Below are positions 10,620 to 28,089 of a stretch of DNA of 48,121 bases, in pieces (the stretch's first letter is position 1; every line of letters starts with the position of its first letter). This DNA is from a virus. The position numbers were made by a program, and so were the translations under genes. The stretch spans positions 1-48,121 of the IMG/VR virus record IMGVR_UViG_3300009551_000060; one strand, 5' to 3'. The notes beneath the pieces were generated by a model that had not been told where the DNA came from, did no database searches, and saw only the letters and a program-made list of their open reading frames with translations.

Positions 10620-11182
10620 GTTTTCGAGCGAAAGCGATTCCGACCGTCTACAACGACGTGCAGTTCCGTTCGCGTCTCGAGGCGCGATGGGCTGCGTTCT
10701 TCGACATCGTCGGTTGGGGCTGGGACTACGAGCCCTTCGATCTCGACGGCTACATCCCGGACTTCGTCTTGAAGTTTTACAAGCCGCTCATCGTCGAGGT
10801 GAAGCCCATCTACAAGTGGCCATGTCTGGTCGCTGACTGTCGCGATCCGCACTGTCGTCACGACTGGGAACTCGCCGCCGACATCAAGAAGATCCGAAGC
10901 TCGGGTTGGGACGGCGAGGCAATCATCGTCGGTTCGGCATGGTGGCATGGCGACGCGGGCTCGCCACTCCTCGGCAAGTTCGTCCAGAGCGACATCTTCC
11001 CCGACGACGCCGTCGGTTTCGTGTGCAACCAGTGCAATCAGGCTTCGATTCACGCCGGCTACGGCCTCTTCGAGTGTCGCTTTGCTGGCTGCGGCGATGG
11101 CGACCACCACATCGGCGATGAGATCGACCCGTCGCTCTGGCGGATGGCTGGCAACCGCGTGCAGTGGAAGGCGCCGAAGTGA
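10616..11182 (+). CDS. PD-(D/E)XK (TnsA-N-like) endonuclease with Cys-rich tail
   Basis: 188 residues from ATG 10616. Residues 17-63 give the nuclease core: E22 (FRSRLEARWAAFF), D49 (YIPDFVL) and E61-x-K63 (LIVEVKP), the arrangement of TnsA N-terminal-like and related phage endonucleases. The C-terminal half adds two cysteine groups (C138-x2-C141 and C154-x4-C159 with nearby His), probably zinc binding. Just upstream of the primase gene; it may process replication or recombination intermediates. Confidence 0.8.
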   Translation: MSFRAKAIPTVYNDVQFRSRLEARWAAFFDIVGWGWDYEPFDLDGYIPDFVLKFYKPLIVEVKPIYKWPCLVADCRDPHCRHDWELAADIKKIRSSGWDGEAIIVGSAWWHGDAGSPLLGKFVQSDIFPDDAVGFVCNQCNQASIHAGYGLFECRFAGCGDGDHHIGDEIDPSLWRMAGNRVQWKAPK

Positions 11183-12153
11183 GCCTCGAGACGCTCAAAG
11201 CGAAGGTCGACAAGTACACGCCGGGCTTCTACCGGATGATTGACGATCCCGAAGCGACCGACCGCGCCGCAGTCCGCATCTCGCGCGACGAGGCCGCTCG
11301 GTGGAACACGCCCGAGCTCGGCTACGGCATCTTCATGACCGTCAACGCCTTCGACGGACCGCGCAGGAAGGAGTACCTGACTCGCATCTGCGCGTGGGCG
11401 ATCGATATGGACGCGGGGACGAAGATGGAGCAGCGCCGACGTCTCCTCGCATCCCCGCTGGTCCCCTCTCTCATCGTCGATACCAAGGCGGGATATCACG
11501 CGTGGTGGCTCGCGCAGGCCGGCGCCAAGCCGGAGCATTGGAATGCGATCGTGCTCGAGCGGCTCGTGCCGTGGTTCGGCAGCGACAAGAACGCGCGCGA
11601 CCTCTGTCGCATCCTGCGCGCGCCTGGCTACCTCCACCTGAAGGATCCCGCCAATCCTTTCAAATGCCGAATCGCATGGCGCCACGACGTTTCGTACAGC
11701 GAACGCCAGATGGCCGATGCGTTCCCATGGGTCCCCGACAAGAAAGCGGCCGAAGAAGAGAAGAGGCGCGAAGCGGAGCGCGTTCGCCGCTCCTCGGCGA
11801 CCTATGCCATCGTCGATACCTTCTGGGATGCGGTCTACAACCTCGACTGCGAAGAGGGGCTTCGCCGCCTCTCTGGCCACTGGGCATGCCGCGGCGAACA
11901 CTTCACGTTCTCGCGGACCGGCCGCGGCAACCTAAACATCTTCGCCGACAAGAAGTCGACGCCCTGTTTTGTCGACGAAAATAGGCGCATCGGATCGCCG
12001 AGCGGAGGTGGACCTACGCTCGCGCAGTGGCTCCGCTGGTATGGCCACGACTGGAAGACGGTCGTTGCTGTGCTCAAGGAAGTATTTCCGCAGCTCGACG
12101 AGATCGACCGCGCAGAGAAAGCGGCCAAGCACCCCCACGCGAGGGCAGCATGA
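11179..12153 (+). CDS. Archaeo-eukaryotic-type primase (RepB-like/PrimPol)
   Basis: 324 residues from GTG 11179 (GTGA overlap). The AEP signature is visible: D76-x-D78 (WAIDMDAG), then LIVDTKAGYHAWW with H107, and RDLCRILRAPGYLHLKD, as in RepB-like phage and plasmid primases. The C-terminal domain (about 225-310) contains CRGEHFTFSR, CFVDENRR and GGGPTLAQWLRWYG, which looks like a degraded zinc-finger or PriCT-like module. With the adjacent helicase it should prime phage replication. Confidence 0.85.
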   Translation: MSLETLKAKVDKYTPGFYRMIDDPEATDRAAVRISRDEAARWNTPELGYGIFMTVNAFDGPRRKEYLTRICAWAIDMDAGTKMEQRRRLLASPLVPSLIVDTKAGYHAWWLAQAGAKPEHWNAIVLERLVPWFGSDKNARDLCRILRAPGYLHLKDPANPFKCRIAWRHDVSYSERQMADAFPWVPDKKAAEEEKRREAERVRRSSATYAIVDTFWDAVYNLDCEEGLRRLSGHWACRGEHFTFSRTGRGNLNIFADKKSTPCFVDENRRIGSPSGGGPTLAQWLRWYGHDWKTVVAVLKEVFPQLDEIDRAEKAAKHPHARAA

Positions 12154-12611
12154 TCGACCGCGAGCAATTCACCATGCGCAAGCCGTGCAAGTGCGGCTCG
12201 ATGCTCGGTCGCATCCGCGAGGTCAACGGCCAAGATACGGTGCGCTGCATCGCGTGCGAGACGTACTGCTATTGCGCTCCGCGAACCGAGACGGGCAGAG
12301 CACAGCGCTCAGTAACAACCGTCCACAACGGGATCAAGCCGAAGCTACGCTCGCGCATCATCGAGCGCGACGGCAATCGCTGCCAGTGGTGCAAGGCCGA
12401 CGACCGGCCGCTGCACGTCGGACACATCGTTAGCGTTGACGCCGGCTTTGCAGCTGGACTAACCGACGACGAAATCAACGACGAGGAAAATCTCGTCGCG
12501 CAGTGCGAAGAGTGCAACCTCGGACAGGGTGCGCTTCCGATGCCGCTGCGCAACGCAATCGTGATTCTTCGGGCGCGCATCTCGTGGCGCCAGAAGCAGG
12601 AGCGCTCGTGA
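12150..12611 (+). CDS. HNH endonuclease with N-terminal zinc ribbon
   Basis: 153 residues from ATG 12150. Residues 13-40 carry C13-x-C15 and C33-x2-C36. The HNH domain follows: RDGNRCQWC (C78-x2-C81), HVGHIVSVDAG (H89, H92), then NLVAQCEECN with the second C-x2-C. It lies between primase and helicase, in register with ATGA/GTGA overlaps, so it looks like an integral gene rather than a recent homing insertion. It could be a nicking or genome-processing enzyme. Confidence 0.85.
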   Translation: MIDREQFTMRKPCKCGSMLGRIREVNGQDTVRCIACETYCYCAPRTETGRAQRSVTTVHNGIKPKLRSRIIERDGNRCQWCKADDRPLHVGHIVSVDAGFAAGLTDDEINDEENLVAQCEECNLGQGALPMPLRNAIVILRARISWRQKQERS

Positions 12612-13678
12612 GCGCAGAACCGACCGACCCACTCGCGTTCGATTACAATCTCGGCTTCCGCCCGAGCGCGGATCGCTCCAAGTCGGAGCGTGCAGACCGG
12701 CTTGCGAACGCCGACAAAGCGATGCCGTTCCACATCGGTTTTCTCGACGACTGCCTTCGCGCTCTCCTCCCTCACGATCTCATCCTCCTCGGCGCCGCGA
12801 CCGGAGTCGGAAAGACCGAGCTCGCGCGGCTGATCGCGACGGCGAACGCCGCCAAAGGCAAGCGCGTGCACTACTTCGCGCTCGAGGCCGAGCCGAACGA
12901 GATCGAGCGTCGCATCAAGTTTTCGATCCTCGTCGACCTCATGGCGGCGAATGACTTCCGCGTGCGCGGCGTCTTCAACTATCTCGACTGGTACCTCGGC
13001 AAGTTCGAGGGTCAGCTCAGCGAGATCGGACTCGATGCCGAGGCCGATGCCGTATTCGCGTCGACATTCGGGAATCGCCTTCACACGATGTATCGCGGGC
13101 GGCAGTTCAACGCATCGCACATTCAGAAGCTGTTCCTCGCAATCCAGGACCAGACCGATCTCATCGTGCTCGATCACCTCCACTACGTGGACGTCGACGA
13201 CGACAACGAGAATCGCGGCCTCAAGAAGACGATCCAACTCATCCGCGACACGTCGCTCAGCGTTGGTAAGCCCGTCATTCTCGTCGCGCACCTTCGCAAG
13301 CGCGACAACCGCATCAAGTCGATTGTGCCGTCGCTCGACGATTTCCACGGCTCGAGTGACGTCGTGAAGATCGCGACGCGCGCGATACTCCTAGCCCCCG
13401 CCTTCTGCGAGCGGTCGCCGCAGAAGCACATCGCGCGCACGTTCATGACGTGCGACAAAGACCGCCACGGTGGCGCGACGCACATGATCGCGTGCGTCGA
13501 CTTCGACCGGCGATCGAGGAAGTACGCCAGCAACTACACGCTTGGACGTCAAACGAAGTCCGGCGACAAGTTCGAGCCGCTCAACATGGGCGAGATCCCA
13601 TTCTGGGCGACGCGACATCAACCCCTGTCCACGCCGATGGACCCGACGCGGTTCGCGGCAGGCAAGGAGTGGGACTGA
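12608..13678 (+). CDS. DnaB-like replicative helicase
   Basis: 356 residues from GTG 12608 (GTGA overlap). Only the RecA-like C-terminal domain of DnaB is present: Walker A GAATGVGKT at 62-70, Walker B TDLIVLDHLHYVD, an acidic DDDNENRGLKKTIQLIRD segment and the sensor strand PVILVAHLRKRD. The N-terminal primase-interaction domain of bacterial DnaB is missing, as in many phage helicases. It probably works with the AEP primase and the winged-helix protein encoded next. Confidence 0.88.
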   Translation: MSAEPTDPLAFDYNLGFRPSADRSKSERADRLANADKAMPFHIGFLDDCLRALLPHDLILLGAATGVGKTELARLIATANAAKGKRVHYFALEAEPNEIERRIKFSILVDLMAANDFRVRGVFNYLDWYLGKFEGQLSEIGLDAEADAVFASTFGNRLHTMYRGRQFNASHIQKLFLAIQDQTDLIVLDHLHYVDVDDDNENRGLKKTIQLIRDTSLSVGKPVILVAHLRKRDNRIKSIVPSLDDFHGSSDVVKIATRAILLAPAFCERSPQKHIARTFMTCDKDRHGGATHMIACVDFDRRSRKYASNYTLGRQTKSGDKFEPLNMGEIPFWATRHQPLSTPMDPTRFAAGKEWD

Positions 13679-14313
13679 TGGACTGGAGCAACGAGCTGTA
13701 CGTGAAGCTGTACCGGCGAGAGACGGATGACGATCTGTTGCTCAGCTGGGACGCTCGCGCGCTGTGGCACGAGATGTTGAAGCGGTTCGATCGCAGCGGA
13801 CTTCTCACGACGCGCCGAGGTGTCCTCGGACTTGCGGCGCTTGTGAGGGGTGACGTCGCGGTGATCGAGCATGCGATCGCGGAGCTTGAGCAAGACGGCC
13901 GGGTGCGTCGTGTCGATGCTGGCTGGCTTGCGCCAAACTTCGTGCCAGCTCAGGATGCACGGAAGAACGACCGACTGCGTCAACAGGAGGCGAGAGAGAA
14001 GCGAAGGCGAGAGGCAATAAATAGTATCGAACCACACAATGACGTCACAGGACGTGACGAATCGTCACACGACGTCACACGTGGTCACGAGCCGTCACAC
14101 GATGTCACGCCGTGTCACTCTGAGATCAGATCAGAAGAGAAGAGACGATCCGAGACGAGCGCGCCTACGCGCGCGATCCCTTCAGATCTTTCCGAGATGC
14201 GACTCGAGCCGCTGACCTGGAATCCGAATCGGTTCCTCGGGTTTGTCGGCGAAACGAAGGTCGGGCTTTTCGAGAGAAACACGCTCGGCGAGCTCGTCGA
14301 GGTGAAGCCGTGA
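13678..14313 (+). CDS. Winged-helix replication protein (putative origin-binding/helicase loader)
   Basis: 211 residues from ATG 13678. N-terminal about 80 residues (ELYVKLYRRETDDDLLLSW, then LTTRRGVLGLAALVRGD) look like a phage replisome-organiser winged helix. A basic linker and a repeat segment follow (HNDVTGRDESSHDVTRGHEP, then SHDVTPCH), encoded by the phased GTCAC array. The C-terminus contains PLTWNPNRFLGFVGE. An initiator gene that carries its own binding sites would parallel lambda O; that role is inferred from position and repeats. Confidence 0.65.
   Translation: MDWSNELYVKLYRRETDDDLLLSWDARALWHEMLKRFDRSGLLTTRRGVLGLAALVRGDVAVIEHAIAELEQDGRVRRVDAGWLAPNFVPAQDARKNDRLRQQEAREKRRREAINSIEPHNDVTGRDESSHDVTRGHEPSHDVTPCHSEIRSEEKRRSETSAPTRAIPSDLSEMRLEPLTWNPNRFLGFVGETKVGLFERNTLGELVEVKP
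14041..14120. repeat. Eight-fold 10-bp phased GTCAC array (candidate origin/iterons)
   Basis: The pentamer GTCAC (once as its reverse complement GTGAC) occurs at 14044, 14054, 14064, 14074, 14084, 14094, 14104 and 14114, exactly every 10 bp, so all copies face the same side of the helix. The first copy forms the palindrome TGACGTCA (14040-14047). The array is preceded by an AT-richer stretch (about 14011-14040) in an otherwise GC-rich genome. It lies inside the putative replication-initiator gene. Spacing and copy number are read directly; origin function is inferred. Confidence 0.8.
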
Positions 14314-14837
14314 TTCTCCTCGCTATCGATCCCGGCAACGAACAGAGCGCGTGGGTGCGGTACAGCACGAAGGAACGGCGGCTCTTGAACTTCGGCAAGC
14401 AACCCAACGCCGAGGTACTTGAGGTCGTCGAGAGTCATGCCGCAGACAGCCCGTCGTACACGCCGCAATCTCCGCTCGCAATCGAGATGATCGCTAGCTA
14501 CGGCATGCCTGTCGGTGCCGAGGTATTCGACACATGCCGCTGGATCGGTCGTCTCGAACAGGTGTGGATGACCAACTACTATGGTCTCGGGGCGCAGCTC
14601 GTCTACCGCCGCGACGTGAAGCTCCACCTGTGCGGTCAGGCACGCGCGAAGGACGCGAATATCAGGGCTGCCCTCATGGACCTGTTCGGGCCAGGGAAGG
14701 AGCGCGCGATCGGCACGAAGAAGACACCAGGGCCGCTCTACGGCGTGACTGCCGACGTCTGGTCTGCCCTCGCCGTGGCAGTCACGGTGAGCACCAACTC
14801 ACAACAGCCGGCCATCAGCGCAGGAGTACAGCCATGA
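14310..14837 (+). CDS. RuvC-like Holliday junction resolvase
   Basis: 175 residues from GTG 14310 (GTGA overlap). RNase H-fold motifs: an N-terminal LLAIDPGNEQSAWV (catalytic Asp), a central LAIEMIASYGM (second acid) and a C-terminal YGVTADVWSALAVAV (third acid). This is the pattern of phage RuvC-like resolvases that cut branched DNA before packaging. It closes the replication block. Confidence 0.8.
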   Translation: MILLAIDPGNEQSAWVRYSTKERRLLNFGKQPNAEVLEVVESHAADSPSYTPQSPLAIEMIASYGMPVGAEVFDTCRWIGRLEQVWMTNYYGLGAQLVYRRDVKLHLCGQARAKDANIRAALMDLFGPGKERAIGTKKTPGPLYGVTADVWSALAVAVTVSTNSQQPAISAGVQP

Positions 14838-14977: not shown

Positions 14978-15270
14978 CCACCGCCATCGACATCCTCACC
15001 CGCTACGTCCCCGGAGCCTCCGAGCTGGCCCATAAGCTCGCGGAGGCCGAGTCCCGCATCGAAGCCCTCGCCTCTGACCGACGCGCCCTCGCGGCTCGTG
15101 TGCAGCGTCTCGAGCTCGGCCAGTACGAGCAGACCGTGCACTGCTCGGGCCGCTGTGGCGCGTCGCTGTGCGTCACGCCGGCTGTGGACGAGGCGGACTT
15201 GCCCGGGGTGCTTCGGGCGGCGAAGTGGGTGGTTGGTGCGGATGGAGCGTGGTGCAGGGGGTGTAGGTGA
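14974..15270 (+). CDS. Coiled-coil protein with C-terminal zinc-ribbon cysteines
   Basis: 98 residues. A heptad-like helix (HKLAEAESRIEALASDRRAL) is followed by CSGRCGASLC and a terminal CRGCR, giving five cysteines that could complete a zinc ribbon. Its stop overlaps the GTG of the methyltransferase. Function unknown. Confidence 0.7.
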   Translation: MTTAIDILTRYVPGASELAHKLAEAESRIEALASDRRALAARVQRLELGQYEQTVHCSGRCGASLCVTPAVDEADLPGVLRAAKWVVGADGAWCRGCR

Positions 15271-16250
15271 ATGCGATCTACAACGAAATCGAGCCGTATG
15301 CGTGCGAGTGGCTCGATGCGCTCGTCAACGCCGGCCATATCGCACCCGGCCGAGTCGAGCGACGAAGCATCGCCGACCTCACCGCCGATGATGTCGCTGG
15401 TTCCGGACAGCGACACTTTTTCGCTGGTATCGGCGGCTGGTCCGCCGCACTTAGACTCGCAGGCGTCCCTGACGACGCCGACGTCTGGACCGGTTCGTGC
15501 CCCTGTCAGCCGTTCAGCTCCGCGGGCAAGAGGAGCGGAACACGCGACCCTCGACATCTTTGGCCAGCATGGTTCGCACTCATCGAGCAGTGTCGCCCTC
15601 CAGTCATCTTTGGAGAGCAGGTTGCGAGCCGAGACGGACTCGCGTGGCTCGACGCTGTTTACGCTGACCTGGAACGATGCGGTTACGCCGTCGGGGCGGC
15701 GGATCTGTGCGCTGCGAGCGTCGGCGCGCCGCATATTCGACAGCGACTCTTCTTCGTGGCCTACTCCGACGAGACAAGACGCAGCGAGCTCGGGCAGCGC
15801 TGGGTACGCGGAGACCAAGACGCATCACGTCGGAGTGACACTGACGGACGCAGCGCGGATGGCGTCGGCCACGACGCCAAGAGCAGAGGATGGATCGAAG
15901 GGAACGCGATCGGATGCCGGAGCGGAGATCGAGCGTCGACGAACACAAGCAGGGATCGACCTGCCGACGACAGCGAAGCTCAGTGGCTGGCGAACGCCGA
16001 CATCGCTGACGCCAAGCACCGAAACAAATCGCGAGGCCGGCGACAGTTGCAACCTACGAGCTATGCGCCTGCTGGTGTCTGGTCTGACTGTGAATGGATC
16101 AACTGCACCGACGGAGTCTCGCGGTCAGTTGAACCCGGCACATTCCCGCTGGCTCATGGGGTATCCGGTCGAGTGGGACGTCTGCGCGGATACGGCAACG
16201 CAATCGTCCCGCAAGTCGCGGCGGCGTTCATCAGGGCAGCGTTAACATGA
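15267..16250 (+). CDS. DNA C5-cytosine methyltransferase (Dcm-type)
   Basis: 327 residues from GTG 15267. C5-methyltransferase motifs in order: FAGIGG (52-57, SAM binding), PCQPFS (79-84, catalytic Cys80), GEQVA in place of the usual ENV (116-120), IRQRLFFVA (157-165) and RGYGNAIVPQVAAAF near the C-terminus. The 170-270 region, where the target-recognition domain should be, is low-complexity and rich in Asp, Arg and Ala. An Asn-to-Gln change in motif VI is notable because that Glu-Asn-Val is usually well kept. It probably protects phage DNA from host restriction. No partner endonuclease gene is adjacent. The gene is overlapped almost entirely by another frame. Confidence 0.9.
   Translation: MNAIYNEIEPYACEWLDALVNAGHIAPGRVERRSIADLTADDVAGSGQRHFFAGIGGWSAALRLAGVPDDADVWTGSCPCQPFSSAGKRSGTRDPRHLWPAWFALIEQCRPPVIFGEQVASRDGLAWLDAVYADLERCGYAVGAADLCAASVGAPHIRQRLFFVAYSDETRRSELGQRWVRGDQDASRRSDTDGRSADGVGHDAKSRGWIEGNAIGCRSGDRASTNTSRDRPADDSEAQWLANADIADAKHRNKSRGRRQLQPTSYAPAGVWSDCEWINCTDGVSRSVEPGTFPLAHGVSGRVGRLRGYGNAIVPQVAAAFIRAALT
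15271..16245 (+). CDS. Overlapping-frame ORF within the methyltransferase gene
   Basis: A 324-codon frame from ATG 15271, four bases after the methyltransferase start and in another frame, ending TAA 16245. From about residue 110 it reads like a real protein: RGSTLFTLTWNDAVTPSGRR, CALRASARRIFDSDSSSWPT and, near the end, LNPAHSRWLMGYPVEWD. I recall similar WPTP and WLMGYP-EWD strings from proteins annotated next to or within phage Dcm genes, which suggests conserved dual coding. Both starts share one ribosome binding region. The first about 80 residues look like shadow sequence. Expression is unproven. Confidence 0.4.
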   Translation: MRSTTKSSRMRASGSMRSSTPAISHPAESSDEASPTSPPMMSLVPDSDTFSLVSAAGPPHLDSQASLTTPTSGPVRAPVSRSAPRARGAEHATLDIFGQHGSHSSSSVALQSSLESRLRAETDSRGSTLFTLTWNDAVTPSGRRICALRASARRIFDSDSSSWPTPTRQDAASSGSAGYAETKTHHVGVTLTDAARMASATTPRAEDGSKGTRSDAGAEIERRRTQAGIDLPTTAKLSGWRTPTSLTPSTETNREAGDSCNLRAMRLLVSGLTVNGSTAPTESRGQLNPAHSRWLMGYPVEWDVCADTATQSSRKSRRRSSGQR

Positions 16251-19957: not shown

Positions 19958-20145
19958 GTGCGGCAGATGAGACGGTCGCCGAGCTTGCTGCAGCTCGCAA
20001 GGCGCGCGACGAAGCGCAGGAAGAATGCATGCGTCTCGACCGCGAGCTCGCCGCGGCGCATGAAGTGGCCGGTCGCACCGAAGCCCGCGTGACCGCGGCT
20101 CGACGTGCCCTCCTCGCGCTGGCAGGCAACGACTCAGCGCCTTAA
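19954..20145 (+). CDS. Short coiled-coil protein upstream of terminase
   Basis: 63 residues from GTG 19954, almost entirely a charged helix (VAELAAARKARDEAQEECMR). Ends TAA four bases before the terminase ATG. It is too short for a typical small terminase subunit and lacks a DNA-binding motif. Confidence 0.6.
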   Translation: MSAADETVAELAAARKARDEAQEECMRLDRELAAAHEVAGRTEARVTAARRALLALAGNDSAP

Positions 20146-20149
20146 CGTC

Positions 20150-21733
20150 ATGTCCGACCGCCGCGACGAGTTCCTCGAGCGCCTGGCTGCGCGCCACAAG
20201 GCGAGGGAAGCGGCGAAGGGCTCGGAGAGCGTCAAGGATTTGTGCGCGCGAATTCGCGCTTGGTACTACCCGAAGCAGGCGGGGTTTCTGCGGTCTGAGG
20301 CGAAGCGACGAGCAACGCTGAAGACGCGGCGCAGCGGTGCCACTACGGGCGGTTGCCGCGAACTGTTGGCGCGTGCCCTGGAACAGCCAGGGTTTCGCGC
20401 GACGTATTGCAACGAGACGCGTGACGAAGCGCGCAAGCTGGCGTGGAAGTCCGATACCAAGGGCGGACTCGTCGACTTGATCGAGAGTCACGGCAAGAAG
20501 CAAGAGCGCAAGATCGGAGTTCCGCACTTTGAACTCGGTGGCGTCATCGTCGAGGTTCGCGAACAGGATTTAACGCTCAATTTCGCGAACGGGTCCACGA
20601 TCGACTTCTTTTGCGCCGACGACGAGCACGCGCTCGAGAAGATGCGCGGGCGCGCCAAGCACGTCGTGTGGGTAGACGAAGCGCAGAAGTTCCGCAATCT
20701 GGATACGTTCGTCCTCGCCATCATCGCCGCGAGCATGACGGATTTCGACGGCGAGACCTGGCTAACCGGAACGCCGAGCAAAGATACGTCGGGATACTTC
20801 TACAGAGTCACCGGCGACGATCGCGCACCCGGATGGGAGGTCCACGAGATCGCCGTCACGGATAACCCATGGTTCGGCGACACGGCAGAGGAGCGCTGGG
20901 CGCGAACCGCCGCCAAGGCACTGACGGACAACGCGTGGACCGTCGAGGAGCCAGACTTTCAGCGCGAGTGGATGGGCAAATGGGTCCATACCGACGCACT
21001 CTATGTCTACCCGATCCACTCGGTGCCTAGCCATTCGCTGTTCTACGCGCCGATGCGGCTCGATTCGAGCGGCTTCCCGGACATCCTGCGCGCGATGGAG
21101 GACCTGCCGCGGCTCAAGGGTCGCGCCGAGTATTTCCTGGGCATGGGGGCGGACCTTGGAACCACGCGGCCGTTCGGGCTGACCGTAGTCGCGTGGTCGC
21201 TGCACGATCCCTGGCTTTACGAGCTCGCGAGCTGGAAGCGCGCAGGCCTGGACTACGACGAGATGGCCGCGTACCTGCACGCCATCCAGCGTCAGCGGTT
21301 CTGCGGTCTGGTCGTGGCGGACGCGGGCGGCGGTGGTAAGCCAGCGGTTAAGGGTTGGTCGAAGAAATGGGTCGAGCGCTACGGTCTGCCCATCATCGAG
21401 GCGGACAAATCGAACAACGAGCTTGCCATCAAGCAGATCGGTAACGACATCAGACACGACCACCTGCGGATGCGCGAAGGGTCGCCGCTGGTCGAGGAGT
21501 GGAAGAAGCACCGCTGGCTCAAGACTCGTTCGGCAACGGGACTGCTTGTCGAGGACCCGACGACGCCGCACGATCTGTCCGACGCATACCGCTACATCCA
21601 CCGCGAATCCTACCACCACCGCTTCCGTCCCGTCGACCCACCGCCCAAGCCGGGCACCTCAGCTTACGCATTGCGCGAAGAAGCGCAGATCGAGGAGGAT
21701 TCGTACAGTGCCGAAGAAAACAGCTATCACTGA
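20150..21733 (+). CDS. Terminase large subunit (TerL)
   Basis: 527 residues from ATG 20150. The ATPase half has a deviant Walker A (TRRSGATTGG, 59-68, no GKT), a Walker B HVVWVDEAQKF (D176, E177) and the coupling-motif-like WLTGTPS. The nuclease half is RNase H-like: MGADLGTTRPFGLTVVAW (D335), LVVADAGGGGKPAV (D391) and PHDLSDAYRYIHR (D478). It packages the genome by ATP-driven translocation and cuts the concatemer. The next gene begins inside its last codons. Confidence 0.9.
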   Translation: MSDRRDEFLERLAARHKAREAAKGSESVKDLCARIRAWYYPKQAGFLRSEAKRRATLKTRRSGATTGGCRELLARALEQPGFRATYCNETRDEARKLAWKSDTKGGLVDLIESHGKKQERKIGVPHFELGGVIVEVREQDLTLNFANGSTIDFFCADDEHALEKMRGRAKHVVWVDEAQKFRNLDTFVLAIIAASMTDFDGETWLTGTPSKDTSGYFYRVTGDDRAPGWEVHEIAVTDNPWFGDTAEERWARTAAKALTDNAWTVEEPDFQREWMGKWVHTDALYVYPIHSVPSHSLFYAPMRLDSSGFPDILRAMEDLPRLKGRAEYFLGMGADLGTTRPFGLTVVAWSLHDPWLYELASWKRAGLDYDEMAAYLHAIQRQRFCGLVVADAGGGGKPAVKGWSKKWVERYGLPIIEADKSNNELAIKQIGNDIRHDHLRMREGSPLVEEWKKHRWLKTRSATGLLVEDPTTPHDLSDAYRYIHRESYHHRFRPVDPPPKPGTSAYALREEAQIEEDSYSAEENSYH

Positions 21734-21974
21734 CGACAGCCGCATCCGCGACCTGCTCATGTGGGCGCGCAAGCAGCGCATCGTTGTGTCGACAATTAGC
21801 GTCGGTGACGTTCACATGACCGTCGCCGACCTCGGCATGGCCGGCGAGAAGAAGACCGCCAAGACCGACGAGGAGCGCAAGGCGAACCTGTACGAGCAGT
21901 ACGGCGGGAAGCCGCTGCAGGATGCGGCGGCGATCGAAGAGGCGAATAGCACGTACGATGAGGATGGGGAATGA
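21708..21974 (+). CDS. Small protein downstream of TerL
   Basis: 88 residues from GTG 21708, preceded by GAGGAGG and overlapping the end of TerL by 26 bases. SRIRDLLMWARKQRIVVSTI plus VGDVHMTVADLG, then a charged stretch and a linker. Function unknown. The gap to the next (convergent) gene, 21975-22029, shows no clear terminator. Confidence 0.7.
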   Translation: MPKKTAITDDSRIRDLLMWARKQRIVVSTISVGDVHMTVADLGMAGEKKTAKTDEERKANLYEQYGGKPLQDAAAIEEANSTYDEDGE

Positions 21975-22029
21975 GCAAGCCTAGCCGTTCAGTCGGCGCG
22001 GTCCGCTTCCATGCATCGTCGGCTCGTAG

Positions 22030-22206
22030 CTACTTCGAGTGCATCTTCCCGCGCTTGATCGGCGCCGGCGCTGCGTAGTGCGCTCCTGCCTTGCGCTGGA
22101 CGCTGTAGCCAATCGCGACGGCTTGCGCGGGCGGTTTGCCAGCGGCGATCTCGGTCTTGATGTTGGTCTGTCGAGCGGTTTTGGATTTGGAGCGGATGAG
22201 GGGCAT
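22030..22206 (-). CDS. Conserved small phage protein (KAGKP-AVAI-YS type)
   Basis: 58 residues from ATG 22206 ([20 protein letters not shown]). The pattern N[25 protein letters not shown] is a motif I recognise from short basic proteins common in phages, whose function is not known. Last gene of the inverted cassette, ending TAG. Confidence 0.75.
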
Positions 22207-22215
22207 GGGCGTAGT

Positions 22216-22482
22216 CTACCGCTTCTCCCACACGCGATACGAGATGAGACCGTCTGGACCTCTTACGAAGTCCGCAACCAACTGTCGTTCGTCAGCCTCG
22301 AGCCGTTCAACGACGCTTGGCTGGTCCTGCGTCTTGCCGCGTTCGACCTCGGGCCAGCCGTCGAGCTGCGCAGCGAACCTGTCGTGATGCTCATCAGGGT
22401 TGTCGCTCGAGAACGTGCTGCGATACATCCGCTTGATGTTGGCAACGAAGTTCTCGATGCCGGTGACGGTTACGAGGCTCAT
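22216..22482 (-). CDS. Small phage protein, unknown function
   Basis: 88 residues from ATG 22482 (ATGA overlap with the upstream gene; an upstream ATG at 22500 is less likely). Contains ENFVANIKRMYRSTFSSDNP and an acidic helix. Function unknown. Confidence 0.65.
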   Translation of the reverse strand: MSLVTVTGIENFVANIKRMYRSTFSSDNPDEHHDRFAAQLDGWPEVERGKTQDQPSVVERLEADERQLVADFVRGPDGLISYRVWEKR

Positions 22483-22856
22483 CGCGTCGCAGCCTTCCAT
22501 CCGACCTTAGCGACCTTCAGCGCATGAGCGTGCACCGCCCCGAGCCCGTCGTCTCCGCTCGGAATGCGATCGAACGTGTGAAACAAGCTCGCCAGCTCTT
22601 TCGCGGTCTCGCCGACCGATTCGATTTGCGCCTTGAACGCGTCGAGTTTCGTCTTGAGAACATCGAGTCCGCACGAAATCAATTCATGCTCCTGCGCCGT
22701 GGGCTTGCGGTATTCGCCGCCGAAGAACCACTCTTCGTCGCGGTGGTTCATCGCGTCGTCGAGGATCTGCATGGCCAGGTCGAGATAGCGACGTACCTTG
22801 TCGACCTCGCCGTTCTCCATGTCCCAATCACAGTTGTCGAGACTGCCGCCACTCAT
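22479..22856 (-). CDS. Phage protein of the MSGGS-start type, unknown function
   Basis: 125 residues starting MSGGSLDNCDWDMENGEVDK, helical throughout. The MSGGS start followed by a helical bundle and the HRDEEWFFGGEYR segment resembles a group of phage proteins of unknown function. ATGA overlaps on both sides. Confidence 0.7.
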   Translation of the reverse strand: MSGGSLDNCDWDMENGEVDKVRRYLDLAMQILDDAMNHRDEEWFFGGEYRKPTAQEHELISCGLDVLKTKLDAFKAQIESVGETAKELASLFHTFDRIPSGDDGLGAVHAHALKVAKVGWKAATR

Positions 22857-23008
22857 GGACGCCTACGCGGCTTGATAACGCCGTTGACAGTTTGGCGAAC
22901 GTACTCGGACAGCGTGAGTTCAAGCGCGTCGGCGCACGACTGAAACCAGCGCTTGTCGGCGTAGCTGAGACGAAAATTGACCAGACGAGTCTTGTTCTCG
23001 CGCTTCAC
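22853..23008 (-). CDS. Putative ribbon-helix-helix DNA-binding protein
   Basis: 51 residues from GTG 23008 (GTGA overlap with the gene before it). Pattern: VNFRLSYADKRWFQSCADALELTLSEYVRQTVNGVIK, an RHH layout with strand, helix A, then LTLSEYVR as helix B. The longer in-frame start at 23044 is not needed. It may autoregulate the cassette together with the upstream gene. Confidence 0.65.
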   Translation of the reverse strand: MKRENKTRLVNFRLSYADKRWFQSCADALELTLSEYVRQTVNGVIKPRRRP

Positions 23009-23145
23009 CTCGCCACCGCCTTCCCGCACTGCATCCGTATCCACGCCGCGAGACTGCGCCCATCGGCTGTCGCTGCAGCTCGCCAGGACTGCAAGTCTTC
23101 GTCACTCAACAGTAGCTTGAACATCCGCGTCAGCTTCGGAGCCAT
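23005..23145 (-). CDS. 46-residue RHH/CopG-like protein, first gene of the inverted cassette
   Basis: ATG 23145 to TGA 23005. MFKLLLSDEDLQSWRAAATA followed by DGRSLAAWIRMQ follows the ribbon-helix-helix plan (strand, helix, turn, helix). Its ATG lies 7 bases after the -10 of a strong predicted promoter with no room for a Shine-Dalgarno sequence, so translation should be leaderless. Confidence 0.65.
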   Translation of the reverse strand: MAPKLTRMFKLLLSDEDLQSWRAAATADGRSLAAWIRMQCGKAVAR

Positions 23146-23152
23146 GGTGTCG

Positions 23153-23181
23153 ATTATGGGTAGATCATGCCCATACGTCAA
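23153..23181 (-). promoter_or_regulatory. Promoter of the inverted cassette
   Basis: Minus-strand TTGACG (23181-23176), 17-base spacer, CATAAT (23158-23153), then exactly 7 bases to the ATG at 23145. Each hexamer differs from the sigma-70 consensus at one position. Spacer and promoter-to-ATG distance equal those of the early-left promoter. The rest of the divergent gap (23182-23232) shows no convincing promoter or ribosome binding site for the portal gene. Confidence 0.7.
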
Positions 23182-23232
23182 TGGATCTTAGCATTTGGAG
23201 CGCATTCCCGTCCCGTGTACTCCTATCCATAG

Positions 23233-25251
23233 GTGGCCCGCGGTAAACCCATCCGTGCCAGACGCCGTCGCGACACTGACGACGACGGACCGCAGCGTTA
23301 CGTGCGCTGGTGGAAGGCATCGGGCGACGAGGACGCGGCCGGCGCGCTGTGGACCTGGATCGACCGACTCCGTACCCGCTGGGCCGCGGACAACTGGATC
23401 GACCTGGTTCACGAAGCGATCTACGAGGGTCGCCCGCTCGGCACATCCGGCGACTATCCGGCGCTGCAACACCTGCGGATGCGCCGCGCTGCACCTGCGA
23501 ACCTGAACGTAACGCAAGGCCTCGTCGACACCGCAACGGCTCGGCTCACCAAGCGCCGTCCGATGCCGTGCGTGTCCGCCGACGACGCGGGCTGGACCGA
23601 GAAGCTGTTTGCCAAGCGGACGTCGCGAATCCTGCGCCGCAAGATGGGCGGCTCGAAGATCGAGAAGATCAAGCCCGACATCATCCGCGACATGATCATC
23701 CGCGGCACGGGCTGCGCGAAGGTGGTCCGGTACGGCGGCGACGTCGCAGTCGAGCGGATTCCTATTTACGAGCTCGTCGTCGACCCACGAGAGGCCCGCT
23801 ACGGCGAGCCCCGCAGCCTGGCGCATATCAAGCCGATTCCGCGCGAGGTGCTGATCGAAGAGTTCCCCGAGCACGCCGAGGCGCTCGAGCAGGTGTCCGA
23901 GTTCACGCGCATGGACCCGTGGACGCAGTACGCCTACGACGGGCCGACGTTCAGCGATCACATCGAAGTCGGCGAGGCGTGGCACCTGCCGTCGGGGCCC
24001 AACGCGATTGACGGTCAGCACATCATCACGTGTCGCGGCGTCGTGCTCCTGCGCGAGCCGTGGAAGCGCCCGCGGTTCCCGATTGCGCGCTGCCACTGGT
24101 CCAACCCGCTGCGTGGATTCCGTGGTCGTGGTCTCGTCGAGCTGCTGTCCGGCCCGCAGGCGAAGCTCAACGACCTCATCCACGACATTCAGGAGGCCGT
24201 GTACTGGGCCGGCATGCTGCACGTGTTCCTGCCCCGCGGCGCGAACATCAACAAGCATCACCTGCGCGCGCGGCATCCTAACGTCGTCGAGACCGACGGG
24301 CCCGCGCCGACGTTCGTCCCGCCCAACGCGATCTCCCCGTCGACGATGCAGCTCGTGCACTTCGTCATCCAGGAGATGCACGACCTGTCCGGCATCGACC
24401 AGGGCAGCGCGACATCGCAGTCGAGCCTGGGTCCCGACGCGTCCGGCAAGGCGCTCGAGACGATGGAGGACATCAAGTCTGACCGCTTCGCGCATGTCGA
24501 GTCGGGTTGGATGCAGTTCAACGTCGAGCTTGGCCAGCTCCAGATCGACGAGGCCCGCGCGCTGTACGACGAGGCCCACGGCAATCCGCTCAAGGTCGAC
24601 GACCCGATCACGAAGAAAGAACTCGCCGCGTGGATCGCCGAGCACGACTGGAGCAAGGTCAAGATCGACGAGGGCGACTACCACCTCACGATCGAGCCGA
24701 TCAACTTCCTGCCCGATAGCCGCGCTGGAAAGCTTTCGTTCGTCAAGGAACTATCCGGCGCCGGCCTGATCCCCGATCCGACGATGACCGCGGCTCTCTT
24801 CGATGAGCCCGACATCGCGCGCGCGAATCGCAGTGTCCTCGGCGCCTACCACGCGCTCGAGTACATCATGGAGAAGCTCGCCGATCCGACCGTCCCGATG
24901 TTCGACATCGCGCCGGATCAGTCGATGAACCTGCCGCTTGGCGTGCTGATGGCCAAGGCGGAGCTCAACGAAGCCTTCTCGCTCGAAGCTCCCGACGAGG
25001 TACTCCAGCGCTATCGCGACTGGATCGAAGCCGCCAAAGGCGAGATCGACAAGGCCGCGAACGCGCCGAGCCTCGCCGGGATGCAGGCGAACAACATGGG
25101 CGCCTCGCCAAACGCCGCGACGCTACAGCCGGGCCTGGGCGGTGCGCCGCCTCCGATGGGACCGCCAGGCGCGGGACCGATGCCGATGCCGCCGGGTCCG
25201 GGTGGACCAGGTGTGCCGCAGGGATTGCCACAACAGGGAATGGCAGCATGA
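23233..25251 (+). CDS. Portal protein (podovirus-type)
   Basis: 672 residues from GTG 23233. Size, position after TerL and before scaffold and capsid, and the segment NPLRGFRGRGLVELLSGPQA followed by KLNDLIHDIQEAVYWAG (about 295-330) match the head-tail connector of T7-like phages. The C-terminus is a flexible Gly/Pro/Met tail (about 640-672). It should form the dodecameric ring at one vertex through which DNA enters and leaves. The GTG lacks an obvious ribosome binding site. Confidence 0.85.
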   Translation: MARGKPIRARRRRDTDDDGPQRYVRWWKASGDEDAAGALWTWIDRLRTRWAADNWIDLVHEAIYEGRPLGTSGDYPALQHLRMRRAAPANLNVTQGLVDTATARLTKRRPMPCVSADDAGWTEKLFAKRTSRILRRKMGGSKIEKIKPDIIRDMIIRGTGCAKVVRYGGDVAVERIPIYELVVDPREARYGEPRSLAHIKPIPREVLIEEFPEHAEALEQVSEFTRMDPWTQYAYDGPTFSDHIEVGEAWHLPSGPNAIDGQHIITCRGVVLLREPWKRPRFPIARCHWSNPLRGFRGRGLVELLSGPQAKLNDLIHDIQEAVYWAGMLHVFLPRGANINKHHLRARHPNVVETDGPAPTFVPPNAISPSTMQLVHFVIQEMHDLSGIDQGSATSQSSLGPDASGKALETMEDIKSDRFAHVESGWMQFNVELGQLQIDEARALYDEAHGNPLKVDDPITKKELAAWIAEHDWSKVKIDEGDYHLTIEPINFLPDSRAGKLSFVKELSGAGLIPDPTMTAALFDEPDIARANRSVLGAYHALEYIMEKLADPTVPMFDIAPDQSMNLPLGVLMAKAELNEAFSLEAPDEVLQRYRDWIEAAKGEIDKAANAPSLAGMQANNMGASPNAATLQPGLGGAPPPMGPPGAGPMPMPPGPGGPGVPQGLPQQGMAA

Positions 25252-25406
25252 GCAACGAACTCAAGACCGGTGACGACTACGACTCCAAGGCTGACTCGGA
25301 CGTCTGCAAAGACGCCGAGGCCAAGCCGGCGACGCCCAAGGGCGGACGTCTGGTCACGCCGGATAATCAGAAACTGATCGACGAGGCGCGGAGGATGCCC
25401 AAGTGA
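25248..25406 (+). CDS. 52-residue charged protein
   Basis: ATG 25248 (MSNELKTGDDYDSKADSDVC) to TGA 25406, ATGA overlap with the portal gene and GTGA overlap with the next. Highly hydrophilic, probably disordered. Function unknown. Confidence 0.65.
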   Translation: MSNELKTGDDYDSKADSDVCKDAEAKPATPKGGRLVTPDNQKLIDEARRMPK

Positions 25407-25567
25407 TCCGCGACGGCCACGACGGCTGGCAGCTCGAGACCTACTCCTGGTCAGAGCGCACCGGTATCGCGACACTCGTCTACGAGCATGCTGCGACTCG
25501 CAAGCACGTCGAGGTGCAGCGCGAGCAGCGGACGTACTTCACCTTCGGTAGCGAGGTGCAGTCGTGA
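25403..25567 (+). CDS. 54-residue protein, unknown function
   Basis: GTG 25403 to TGA 25567 (VIRDGHDGWQLETYSWSERT), a beta-rich sequence (GIATLVYEHAATRKHVEVQR). Four-base overlaps on both sides place it in the portal-scaffold operon. Confidence 0.65.
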   Translation: MIRDGHDGWQLETYSWSERTGIATLVYEHAATRKHVEVQREQRTYFTFGSEVQS

Positions 25568-26781
25568 GCGCCGACGACGATGACGACGACGCGCCGGCTA
25601 TCACGACCGGCATGGAAGCGCCTGACGCGCCCGACGGAACGCCGAACACCGAGATCATCGGAGGTCACGGCGGAGCATCGGAGGTGATCGCGCCGCCCAA
25701 GGGTCAACAGCGCGTTATCAGCGCGAAGGCCCGCGAGCTGTTCGCGAAGGCCGCGAAGTCGATGAAGGAGCAGCTCGCCGCGGACGACGACGAGTTCACC
25801 AACGGTCTTGCGACTGACGAGCCCGAGCCGGTCAAGCCCGAGGAGACTGCTGCGGTCGCCGCCGCGATCGTCGAGCCTGCCGCCGCTCCGCCGTCGGCGC
25901 CACCGCCTGCCGCAGCGCTCGACCCCTCGATCGAGCAGCACCGCCAGCGCCTCGACATGCGCCAGGCGGACCTCGACGCGCGCGAGAAGGCCATCGCCGA
26001 CCGCGAGAAGGTCGCGACGTCGAGCCTCGAGGACTACCAGAGCCGCTACTACGAGGACCCCGAAGGGACGCTCGTGGCGCTCATCCGTCGCATGACCGGC
26101 GCGGGCGACACCGACGACATCACCGAGGAAGTGGCGGACCTCATCACGGGTCTATCCGGCGCCGTGCTCAAGGTACCGCTCACGCCCGAGGTGAAGAACA
26201 ACCTACAGAGCAAGCGCGCGCTCAAGACCGTCAAGGCGCACAAGGCGCAGCTCAGCAAGATCGACGAAGCCCGCGAGGCCAAGCGCGTCGCGGCGCAGCA
26301 AGAAGAGGAGCGCGGCCGGGCCGTCACGACCCTGTCGCAACTCATCACCAAGGAGGAACACGCGAAGCAGTTTCCGTATCTGGCAGCAGAGGACAACGCG
26401 GGTGCGCTGATTTTCGACGTCATCGAGACTCAGCACAAACGCGACGGAACGATGCTGCAGTGGACGGAAGCCGCCAAGCGGGCCAACGACTACTTGAACC
26501 AGCAATGGCAGCGCCATTACGACAAGCGCCGCCACCTGCTTAGCGCAGCGCCCGACAAGGCGCCGCCGAAGCCAGCCGAAGCGATCGTGCCTCAGGGAGA
26601 CCCGTCAGGGATTCGCAGGTCACACACGATCACCAACGCAGCATCGGCAGCGACTGCCACTCCCAAGCCAAAGCAGCCGGATTCTCCGACTGTCGACGCG
26701 AACGGCAAGTGGGATCGGAGCGCTCACCGTGCTCGGACCGTCGCGAAGTATCGCGCCGCGTTCAAGCCGTCCGAGGAGTAG
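25564..26781 (+). CDS. Putative capsid scaffold protein
   Basis: 405 residues from GTG 25564. Acidic N-terminus, Pro/Ala-rich linker (about 95-115), a long coiled-coil middle (HRQRLDMRQADLDAREKAIA), then helices and a basic C-terminus. Its position directly before the major capsid gene and its helical, charged composition are those of podovirus scaffold proteins. It ends TAG. No protease domain seen. Confidence 0.7.
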   Translation: MSADDDDDDAPAITTGMEAPDAPDGTPNTEIIGGHGGASEVIAPPKGQQRVISAKARELFAKAAKSMKEQLAADDDEFTNGLATDEPEPVKPEETAAVAAAIVEPAAAPPSAPPPAAALDPSIEQHRQRLDMRQADLDAREKAIADREKVATSSLEDYQSRYYEDPEGTLVALIRRMTGAGDTDDITEEVADLITGLSGAVLKVPLTPEVKNNLQSKRALKTVKAHKAQLSKIDEAREAKRVAAQQEEERGRAVTTLSQLITKEEHAKQFPYLAAEDNAGALIFDVIETQHKRDGTMLQWTEAAKRANDYLNQQWQRHYDKRRHLLSAAPDKAPPKPAEAIVPQGDPSGIRRSHTITNAASAATATPKPKQPDSPTVDANGKWDRSAHRARTVAKYRAAFKPSEE

Positions 26782-26802
26782 CGGACGATTCACGGGCGCC
26801 GA

Positions 26803-26837
26803 GCAGGTCAACACACGTCGATGAAAGTGTGACCTGC
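26803..26837 (+). promoter_or_regulatory. RNA hairpin just upstream of the capsid gene
   Basis: Arms GCAGGTCA-a-CAC (26803-26814) and GTGTGACCTGC (26827-26837) pair over 11 bp with a single-base bulge around a 12-base loop. The stem ends one base before the ATG at 26839, in the 57-base gap after the scaffold gene. It could stabilise or process the capsid mRNA or control initiation; there is no T-tract, so it is not a typical terminator. Confidence 0.65.
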
Positions 26838-26838
26838 G

Positions 26839-28089
26839 ATGAGTGGTTTGAACCTTACGAATTACGATCCAATGCTCAAGGAGCACTACGCTCCTGGCAT
26901 CGTGGCCAATCTGGCCATGCAGAAGAACAAGGCCATCGGCATGATGGCCAAGAAGAACAAGAAGCCCGGCGGCGGTCGCGAGTGGGTGCAGCCGATTCAG
27001 TTCGGCATGCCCGGCGGCGGTTCGACGGACTTCCCGACCGCGCTCGCTGCGAGCAACAACAACTCGCAATACGGCGTGTTCCAGGTCAAGCGGGCCAAGC
27101 ACTACCGCTTCGCGAAAGTCGACAACGAGACGATCGAGGCGACGGCCGACGGCGACATGGACGCCTTCGAGCCGGCGTTCGACGAGTTCGATCGCGCGAT
27201 CGAGGCCGAGGGCAATTACCTCAACTTCCGCTTCTTCCGTTCGGGCGGCGGCTCGATCGGCAAGATGACCAACACCGCGTTCAACACCGCGGTGATGACG
27301 CTCGACGACGCCGCGGGCGTCTGGGGCGTGGTCAAGGGTGACGTCCTCAACCTGTCGACGGCGAACGGCAAGAGCGGCGCGCTCAAGGCCGGCTCGCTGA
27401 CGGTGGCGAGCGTGCAGCGTCGCGCCGGCACGATCACGTTCACGGGCAACATCTCCGCGGGTGTCGCGACGGCGGCGACGAACGATTTCGTGTTCCTCGC
27501 CGGCGACTTCCTCGGCTCGGGCAACGGCGGCTCGATGGCCGGTCTCATCGACTGGATTCCGGATACGGATCCGTCGGACACGTTCTTCAACGTCGACCGC
27601 TCGCAGGATCCCGACATGTTGGGCGGCCTGCGCGTCGATGGTACGGACGGTCGACCGGTCCACGAGCTCCTGATCGACATGGTCGTCGAGGCGGACAACA
27701 TGGGCGCGGAGCCCGACGTCGTGCTCGCGAACCCGCGCACGCTCGGCAACCTGTCCAAGCAGCTCGAGGGCAAGTGGATCATCCAGAAGGGCTCGGGCTA
27801 CTCGGGCTCGAACCCGGACATCGGCTACAAGGGCTGGCAGGTCGAGCTCGAGGGGCACTCGGTGACGGTCTTCTCGGACCGCTGCTGCCAGGTCGACCAC
27901 CTCTGGATGCTCCAGATGGACACGTGGACGATGTTCTCGGCCGGGCCGGCGCTGAACTTCCTGCAGAAGCGGGCGGGTTCGATCATCAAGGTCAGCGAGA
28001 ACGCCGACGCGTACGAGGCCCGCATCGGCGAGTACGCCAACTTCGCGTGCAAGGCGCCGGGTTGGAACGTCCAGGGTCGCCGCGCCTAA
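26839..28089 (+). CDS. Major capsid protein (HK97-like fold)
   Basis: 416 residues (MSGLNLTNYDPMLKEHYAPG). Position after the scaffold, length, and the C-terminal pattern DVVLANPRTLGNLSKQL, VTVFSDRCCQVDHLWMLQMD and AYEARIGEYANFACKAPGWN are those of podovirus-type capsid proteins. No N-terminal delta domain is apparent, in keeping with a separate scaffold. No Shine-Dalgarno sequence lies directly upstream; a hairpin occupies that place. Confidence 0.88.
   Translation: MSGLNLTNYDPMLKEHYAPGIVANLAMQKNKAIGMMAKKNKKPGGGREWVQPIQFGMPGGGSTDFPTALAASNNNSQYGVFQVKRAKHYRFAKVDNETIEATADGDMDAFEPAFDEFDRAIEAEGNYLNFRFFRSGGGSIGKMTNTAFNTAVMTLDDAAGVWGVVKGDVLNLSTANGKSGALKAGSLTVASVQRRAGTITFTGNISAGVATAATNDFVFLAGDFLGSGNGGSMAGLIDWIPDTDPSDTFFNVDRSQDPDMLGGLRVDGTDGRPVHELLIDMVVEADNMGAEPDVVLANPRTLGNLSKQLEGKWIIQKGSGYSGSNPDIGYKGWQVELEGHSVTVFSDRCCQVDHLWMLQMDTWTMFSAGPALNFLQKRAGSIIKVSENADAYEARIGEYANFACKAPGWNVQGRRA

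Follow-up and report, generated by a model that had tools for sequence, protein, structure and literature searches.

A probable bipartite replication origin of 10-bp-phased GTSAC sites and a 5-bp-periodic tract inside a phage initiator gene

Plasmid iterons are about 20 bp long and lie, together with AT-rich 13-mers, outside the rep gene, and in ParR-parC partition systems 10–11-bp direct repeats seed a protein filament. Among phages, the O-some of lambda has been described, and it is known in general that O-like genes contain repeats (PMC8508860); the lytic origin oriL of P1 is reported to lie within the coding sequence of the initiator gene repL, where it was dissected by synonymous substitutions (PMC9948254). 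Two further systems couple double-stranded sites to a repeated element on one strand. In TrfA/RK2 a winged-helix Rep protein binds iterons and repeated ssDNA motifs on one strand of the DUE together (PMC4081077), and DnaA-trios follow the consensus 3′-GAT-5′ (PMC10201434).

We analysed a stretch of 48,121 nucleotides of viral DNA (IMG/VR record IMGVR_UViG_3300009551_000060; hereafter the window), in which genes for the terminase large subunit, portal and major head protein follow in order at 20105–28089, indicating a tailed-phage genome. Positions 14044–14162 of the window, where the phage's initiator gene codes for the linker of its product, probably constitute a bipartite replication origin. 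One part is an array for the initiator that faces one side of the helix, and the other is an element phased by half turns, for unwinding or loading.

The array and its gene in the window

The initiator gene lies in a replication module (Table 1), with an HNH endonuclease-like ORF (12027–12611; phrog_589, E 1.8e-8) between the primase-like and helicase genes, and a DNA methyltransferase gene (15267–16250; phrog_363, E 1.8e-74) a few hundred bases 3′ of the module. Its product weakly matches replication initiation PHROGs (phrog_1408, E 2e-4). It has no match in Pfam or NCBIfam, which places it outside the Phage_rep_org_N and DnaD-like profiles, though its fold weakly resembles that of a Phage_rep_org_N protein (E 4e-3). 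Profile searches of the PDB gave no relative and fold searches yielded generic winged helices only, the best PDB match being to winged-helix regulators (E 0.011); INPHARED contained no named relative, and a search with the repeat peptide returned nothing useful. AlphaFold models a confident winged helix (pLDDT 93–98 over residues 21–90), a helix at residues 98–117, a linker at about residues 121–180 with pLDDT of 53–60, and then a small beta domain. Much of the low-confidence linker is encoded by the array.

Table 1. Features of the replication module and the proposed origin (positions in the window)
Feature	Position	Strand	Basis
RepB-primase-like gene	11164–12153	+	PF16793 E 6.2e-8
DnaB-like helicase gene (start codon tentative), directly upstream of initiator	12575–13678	+	PF03796 E 8.5e-12; phrog_239, phrog_19
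Initiator gene, 211 aa: winged helix, basic helix, disordered linker (array-encoded), small C-terminal beta domain	13678–14313	+	PHROG, AlphaFold, 69 homologous loci
Basic-helix codons, residues 95–112, RKNDRLRQQEAREKRRRE; proposed base-reading helix	13960–14013	+	Family alignment
Iteron array, eight GTSAC, period 10 bp	14044–14118	+	Sequence, codon resampling, homologue counts
Inverted opening pair GTCAC-N5-GTGAC	14044–14058	.	Sequence; same opening in 34 family arrays
Border unit GTCACTCT: last iteron, then TCY, no purine	14114–14121	+	GTCACTCC/GTCACTCT ends 37/59 arrays
Pentamer tract AGATC AGATC AGAAG AGAAG AGACG ATCCG AGACG AGCGC, in phase with iterons	14123–14162	+	Sequence; family lag-5 test
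RuvC-like Holliday junction resolvase gene, after initiator	14310–14837	+	phrog_1770 E 5.5e-21

The initial annotation had reported eight GTCAC or GTGAC (GTSAC) sites exactly 10 bp apart in this gene, and all eight are indeed present, starting at 14044, 14054, 14064, 14074, 14084, 14094, 14104 and 14114 without exception; the second is GTGAC and the other seven GTCAC. Translation of the ORF at 13678–14313 likewise bears out the HDVT peptide said to recur every 10 residues. Otherwise GTSAC is rarer in the window than expected, at 98 sites compared to 135, and no second run of four phased sites occurs elsewhere in it.

One competing account is that selection acts on an HDVT/SH linker peptide, with the DNA periodicity as a by-product, given that the peptide does recur every 10 residues in a linker predicted to be disordered. 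When codons for the fixed window peptide were drawn according to the codon usage of five window ORFs, however, none of 100,000 resamplings kept all eight sites, the mode being three. The array in the window is neither a by-product of the protein nor a product of chance.

Homologues and the reader of the sites

For the family to which the window gene belongs (family 1), an alignment of N-terminal domains was seeded from 16 array-bearing genes. These had been picked for their arrays, yet the query was the N-terminal domain alone, and it retrieved 69 loci. The proposed search for phased GTCAC in related genes proved fruitful, with at least one 10-bp-phased GTSAC pair in 54 of the 61 non-redundant homologues and a run of three or more in 37. 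Altogether the 61 genes hold 257 phased pairs, compared to 25.0±5.0 (maximum 41) over 200 within-gene synonymous codon shuffles. It had been argued that homologues keeping the protein repeats while losing the DNA phasing would speak against an origin; we find the opposite, phasing in the 61 homologues going far beyond what the protein demands. TCA makes up 51% of Ser codons within the arrays and 10% outside, and GTGAC is absent from the frame where TGA would arise, a frame in which GTCAC stands 109 times. Site-to-site distances peak at 10, 20/21 and 30/31 bp, which are whole helical turns, and 56% of site pairs are in helical phase where a uniform distribution would give 22%. Initiator genes contain 52 runs of at least three sites, whereas the 453,602 bp of DNA around them contain no such run.

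These results also bear on the peptide account, since phasing is destroyed by synonymous shuffling as well as by codon resampling, and gaps of 20/21 and 30/31 bp hold helical phase. Further, in a second initiator family (family 2, below) the lattice is kept with other residues, because the iterons there are different. Shuffling and resampling rule out the protein repeat as sole cause, and we regard the peptide account as a whole as scarcely credible.

The arrays have a regular internal structure. A purine follows GTCAC in 94% of direct units, making the site asymmetric, and since the purine rule also holds on the other strand (90%), GTGAC units are inverted copies of GTCACR. Like the window, 34 family 1 arrays open with an inverted pair. 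Arrays can reach 18 units (L027).

Recent tandem duplication of a microsatellite-like, functionless kind could also be proposed, as slippage can generate short phased repeats; indeed, the 84 matches to the same pattern in cellular genomes are mostly near-identical simple tandem repeats, which we judged irrelevant. Viral contigs differ in this respect. Among their six-unit GTSAC arrays, diverged spacers (mean spacer identity <0.5) are found in 22 of 38 at 10 bp, compared to one of 50 and one of 22 at the control spacings of 9 and 11 bp. This specificity for the 10-bp spacing also counts against a chance origin of the series. In addition, GTSAC is kept among homologues of roughly 30–55% identity. 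Slippage is thus rejected for the window family by the 257 compared to 25 phased pairs and for viral arrays by their diverged spacers, leaving it with negligible probability.

A centromere-like partition site of the ParR-parC style, organised by the same protein, is suggested by the spacing and the filament-like array, both of which resemble parC-type sites. Against this, the genes match replication-initiation PHROGs and sit in replication modules beside helicase, primase or DnaC-like loader genes, and an unsystematic look nearby noticed no partition ATPase. We consider partition very improbable.

Several loci depart from the common pattern. In other viral contigs (L007, L008, L012, L026, L034 and L036), 10-bp GTCAC arrays lie outside any long ORF and have more uniform spacers. 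Initiator-like genes in L098 and L101 carry GTSAC arrays spaced by 11 bp, followed in L098 by a 6-bp GCAGAN tract. In one initiator (L013 1735–3249) an additional segment, which matches PHROG families 4284 and 8130 (function unknown), separates the winged helix from the array and may be a domain insertion. Lastly, replication-type HTH proteins in L065 (13115–14416) and L079 (2514–3863) have GTGAC repeats at 9-bp spacing (GDAGDTGD) before a zinc-finger/HNH-like segment.

The identity of the protein reading the sites can be approached through family 2, the L031-like initiators (phrog_9474/3729), which were searched in the same way as family 1 and form the larger group, being encoded by at least 548 viral contig stretches. 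A profile comparison of the two families, repeats included, gives 94% probability and suggests that they are distantly related; they are thus not fully independent. Iterons in family 2 vary, being GTCAC, GTGAC, GCAAC, GAAAC or GTAAC. Across 51 family 2 genes, the alignment columns most informative on iteron class are positions 102, 103, 106 and 109 (numbering of L270), all in the basic helix after the winged helix, and position 106 carries 0.92 of a possible 0.98 bits. In an enlarged set of 53, where the same residue is numbered 105, the iteron is GTCAC for K (19/19), GTGAC for T (6/6), GCAAC for S (5/5) and GNAAC, that is GAAAC or GTAAC, for V (20/20). On a tree built from the winged helix only, iteron class changes at least 13 times, and in all of 12 independent pairs, once through Q, the residue follows the iteron, though the tree is poorly resolved and only two of the pairs lie on strongly supported branches. 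A similar picture emerges by eye for an epsilon15-like family, in which V occurs with GTAAC (CP2, Rac) and K with GTCCGC (epsilon15, phiPSA1). As helix and array are neighbours in the DNA, co-inheritance by linkage may add to the correlation.

Since one residue of the basic helix predicts the repeat in family 2, the encoded protein is the likely ligand of the iterons. In family 1 the basic helix is variable and the iteron nearly constant, so the residue–iteron rule rests on family 2; R101 and R106 of the helix are invariant across the window family, and by alignment and inference the window helix would have the same base-reading role. Two family 1 members whose basic helix reads KEKRERA (L208 and L215) have GACAC sites, possibly a further helix-linked change of iteron.

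The same data bear on host factors. The half-site of CRP is TGTGA/TCACA, which overlaps GTGAC/GTCAC in part, and the array might accordingly be taken for a set of sites for such a protein. Direct 10-bp repeats are, however, unlike CRP palindromes, the family 2 iteron co-varies with a phage protein, and other families use GTCCGC or GCAAC. The chance that host-factor sites explain the array appears very small.

The pentamer tract and a proposed mechanism

Directly 3′ of the last GTCAC lies a 5-bp-periodic tract (AGNNN/TAGCC), which the initial annotation had missed; in the window AG stands at 14123, 14128, 14133, 14138, 14143, 14153 and 14158. Lag-5 autocorrelation in family 1 is 0.487 compared to 0.369±0.009 after synonymous shuffling, and C is found at +6, +11, +16, +21, +26, +31 and +36 in 92 to 64% of genes. 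The effect is stronger in family 2 (lag 5, 0.756 compared to 0.413±0.011), where the iteron part has a lag-10 value of 0.519 compared to 0.371±0.008. Five consecutive AG pentamers occur in 55 of 63 non-redundant family 2 genes, the AG positions being part of the selection of this family and the adjoining bases and upstream iterons not. The A of the iteron is locked at −6, −16, −26 and −36 from the first pentamer. TAGAG makes up 60% of pentamer units in frame 2 and none in frame 0, where TAG is a stop, such that TAG is used where the frame permits and substituted where a stop would arise.

The arrangement recurs in annotated replication genes of named phages, with iterons followed by AGAGA-type pentamers in Cy-LDV1, epsilon15, phiPSA1 and CP2. 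A 6-bp version of the tract is found in Tritos, pAEv1818, some family 2 members (L340, L341 and L349) and the Rac prophage gene ydaU. In the last of these (L352 1528–1680), GTTAC/GTAAC sites precede a 6-bp AGAGGA tract. Rac is stated to carry an active origin, oriJ (PMC3945230), and the ydaU array is a candidate for its location; ydaU-like sequence is present in 1500 of 5426 complete E. coli genomes.

An AT-richer stretch upstream of the array had also been pointed out. It does exist in the window (45% GC at 14000–14043, compared to 64% for the genome) but fails as a family feature, mean upstream GC being 0.643 compared to 0.641 for the genes, and an upstream AT-rich unwinding element is rejected as not conserved. 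The likely unwinding element, by analogy with other origins, is instead the downstream pentamer tract, though this is not AT-rich, the 45 bp 3′ of the array having a mean GC of 58% in family 1 and 55% in the window. The GC-skew switch that was to be looked for near 14 kb is missing, the skew there being flat and uninformative.

The tract also helps to weigh an autoregulatory role, in which the initiator would bind the array to repress or time its own or downstream genes while the origin lies elsewhere. Evidence for binding, namely DNA-level constraint and helix–iteron co-variation, does not by itself separate operator from origin, and a filament bound to an intragenic array would block transcription. 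An operator leaves unexplained, however, both the phase-locked pentamer tract with its recurrence across families and the arrays of as many as 18 units, and we think it unlikely. The initial proposal was an origin, or a platform for cooperative binding, whose ligand is the encoded protein as it is in lambda O. This is the reading best supported by the phasing in homologues and the family 2 helix–iteron rule.

The computations show the two periodicities and their phase lock, constraint on the DNA itself, recurrence across several initiator families and co-variation of iteron and helix residue. From these we infer that the protein binds and forms a filament, that the strands open and helicase is loaded, and that the origin is used, as follows. 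The basic helix following the winged helix would read GTCACR sites in the major groove, and the 10-bp spacing would place successive protomers on one face of the duplex, one per turn, where they could line up as neighbours in a cooperative filament. The array opens with an inverted pair, and its last unit closes it at a fixed border. From this border, in phase with the 10-bp lattice, runs the 5-bp-periodic tract, with an ideal unit near TAGNN, as the putative site of duplex opening and of loading of the initiator or of the helicase machinery from the adjacent gene. Protomers may be handed over to the tract in the way that DnaA moves from its boxes to the DnaA-trios. The cost to the protein would be a repetitive disordered linker.

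If this is true, many origins of temperate and environmental phages could be located by sequence alone, by looking in initiator genes for iterons on a 10-bp lattice with a 5-bp tract locked to them. The iteron would be predictable from the helix residue, so that specificity, incompatibility and origin-borrowing phage satellites could be tested rationally. The pentamer tract would be a second, independent periodic loading element for origin opening, beside DnaA-trios. Finally, the odd VT/SH/SR-rich and EEKRREE-rich linkers of many phage replication proteins would be explained, with selection acting on the DNA and not on the peptide.

Comparison with described origins

In the open literature we found no description of GTCAC arrays, AGAGA tracts or phage origins within genes at 10-bp spacing, and the 10-bp lattice, the phase-locked tract of period 5 and the helix-to-iteron rule appear to be new. 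There is a close likeness to lambda, where the origin in O, like the array in the window, has its iterons midway through the initiator gene, flanked by the parts coding for DNA binding and for the C-terminus, with a purine-rich tract following on the coding strand and a helicase gene adjoining. Lambda, however, has four 18-bp iterons about 20–24 bp apart and an AT-rich tract, whereas the window has a 10-bp unit with a 5–6-bp core and a G+C-containing 5-bp-periodic tract locked to the iterons. The locus thus shares with lambda O-type origins the array in a replication initiator gene and lacks their iterons of about 18–20 bp.

Other systems resemble it in part. The 10-bp array differs from the iterons and 13-mers of iteron plasmids in length and in its intragenic position. 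In P1 an AT-rich region is the key element of oriL, unlike in the window, and the abstract reports no phased array (PMC9948254). ParR-parC has direct repeats of similar spacing but differs in its partition function, its protein fold and its intergenic location. TrfA/RK2 similarly combines a winged-helix protein with iterons and repeated motifs in the unwinding region, binding to which would be the counterpart proposed here. With DnaA boxes and DnaA-trios the window shares double-stranded sites that run straight into a short periodic element on one strand, whose preferred unit also contains 5′-TAG-3′, though the period is 3 there and 5 (or 6) here, and no AAA+ domain was found in the initiator.

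Since iteron length, the AT-rich tract and a period of 3 all differ, the locus would work like these known systems without being a member of any. By this analogy, the half-turn pentamer or hexamer tract might represent a new class of origin element, a conjecture we hold with somewhat more doubt than belief: a sequence-coded track along one strand by which the phage initiator or its helicase is loaded in steps of 5–6 nt, being a widespread phage counterpart of DnaA-trios that is hidden in coding DNA and accompanied by a readable helix-to-iteron code.
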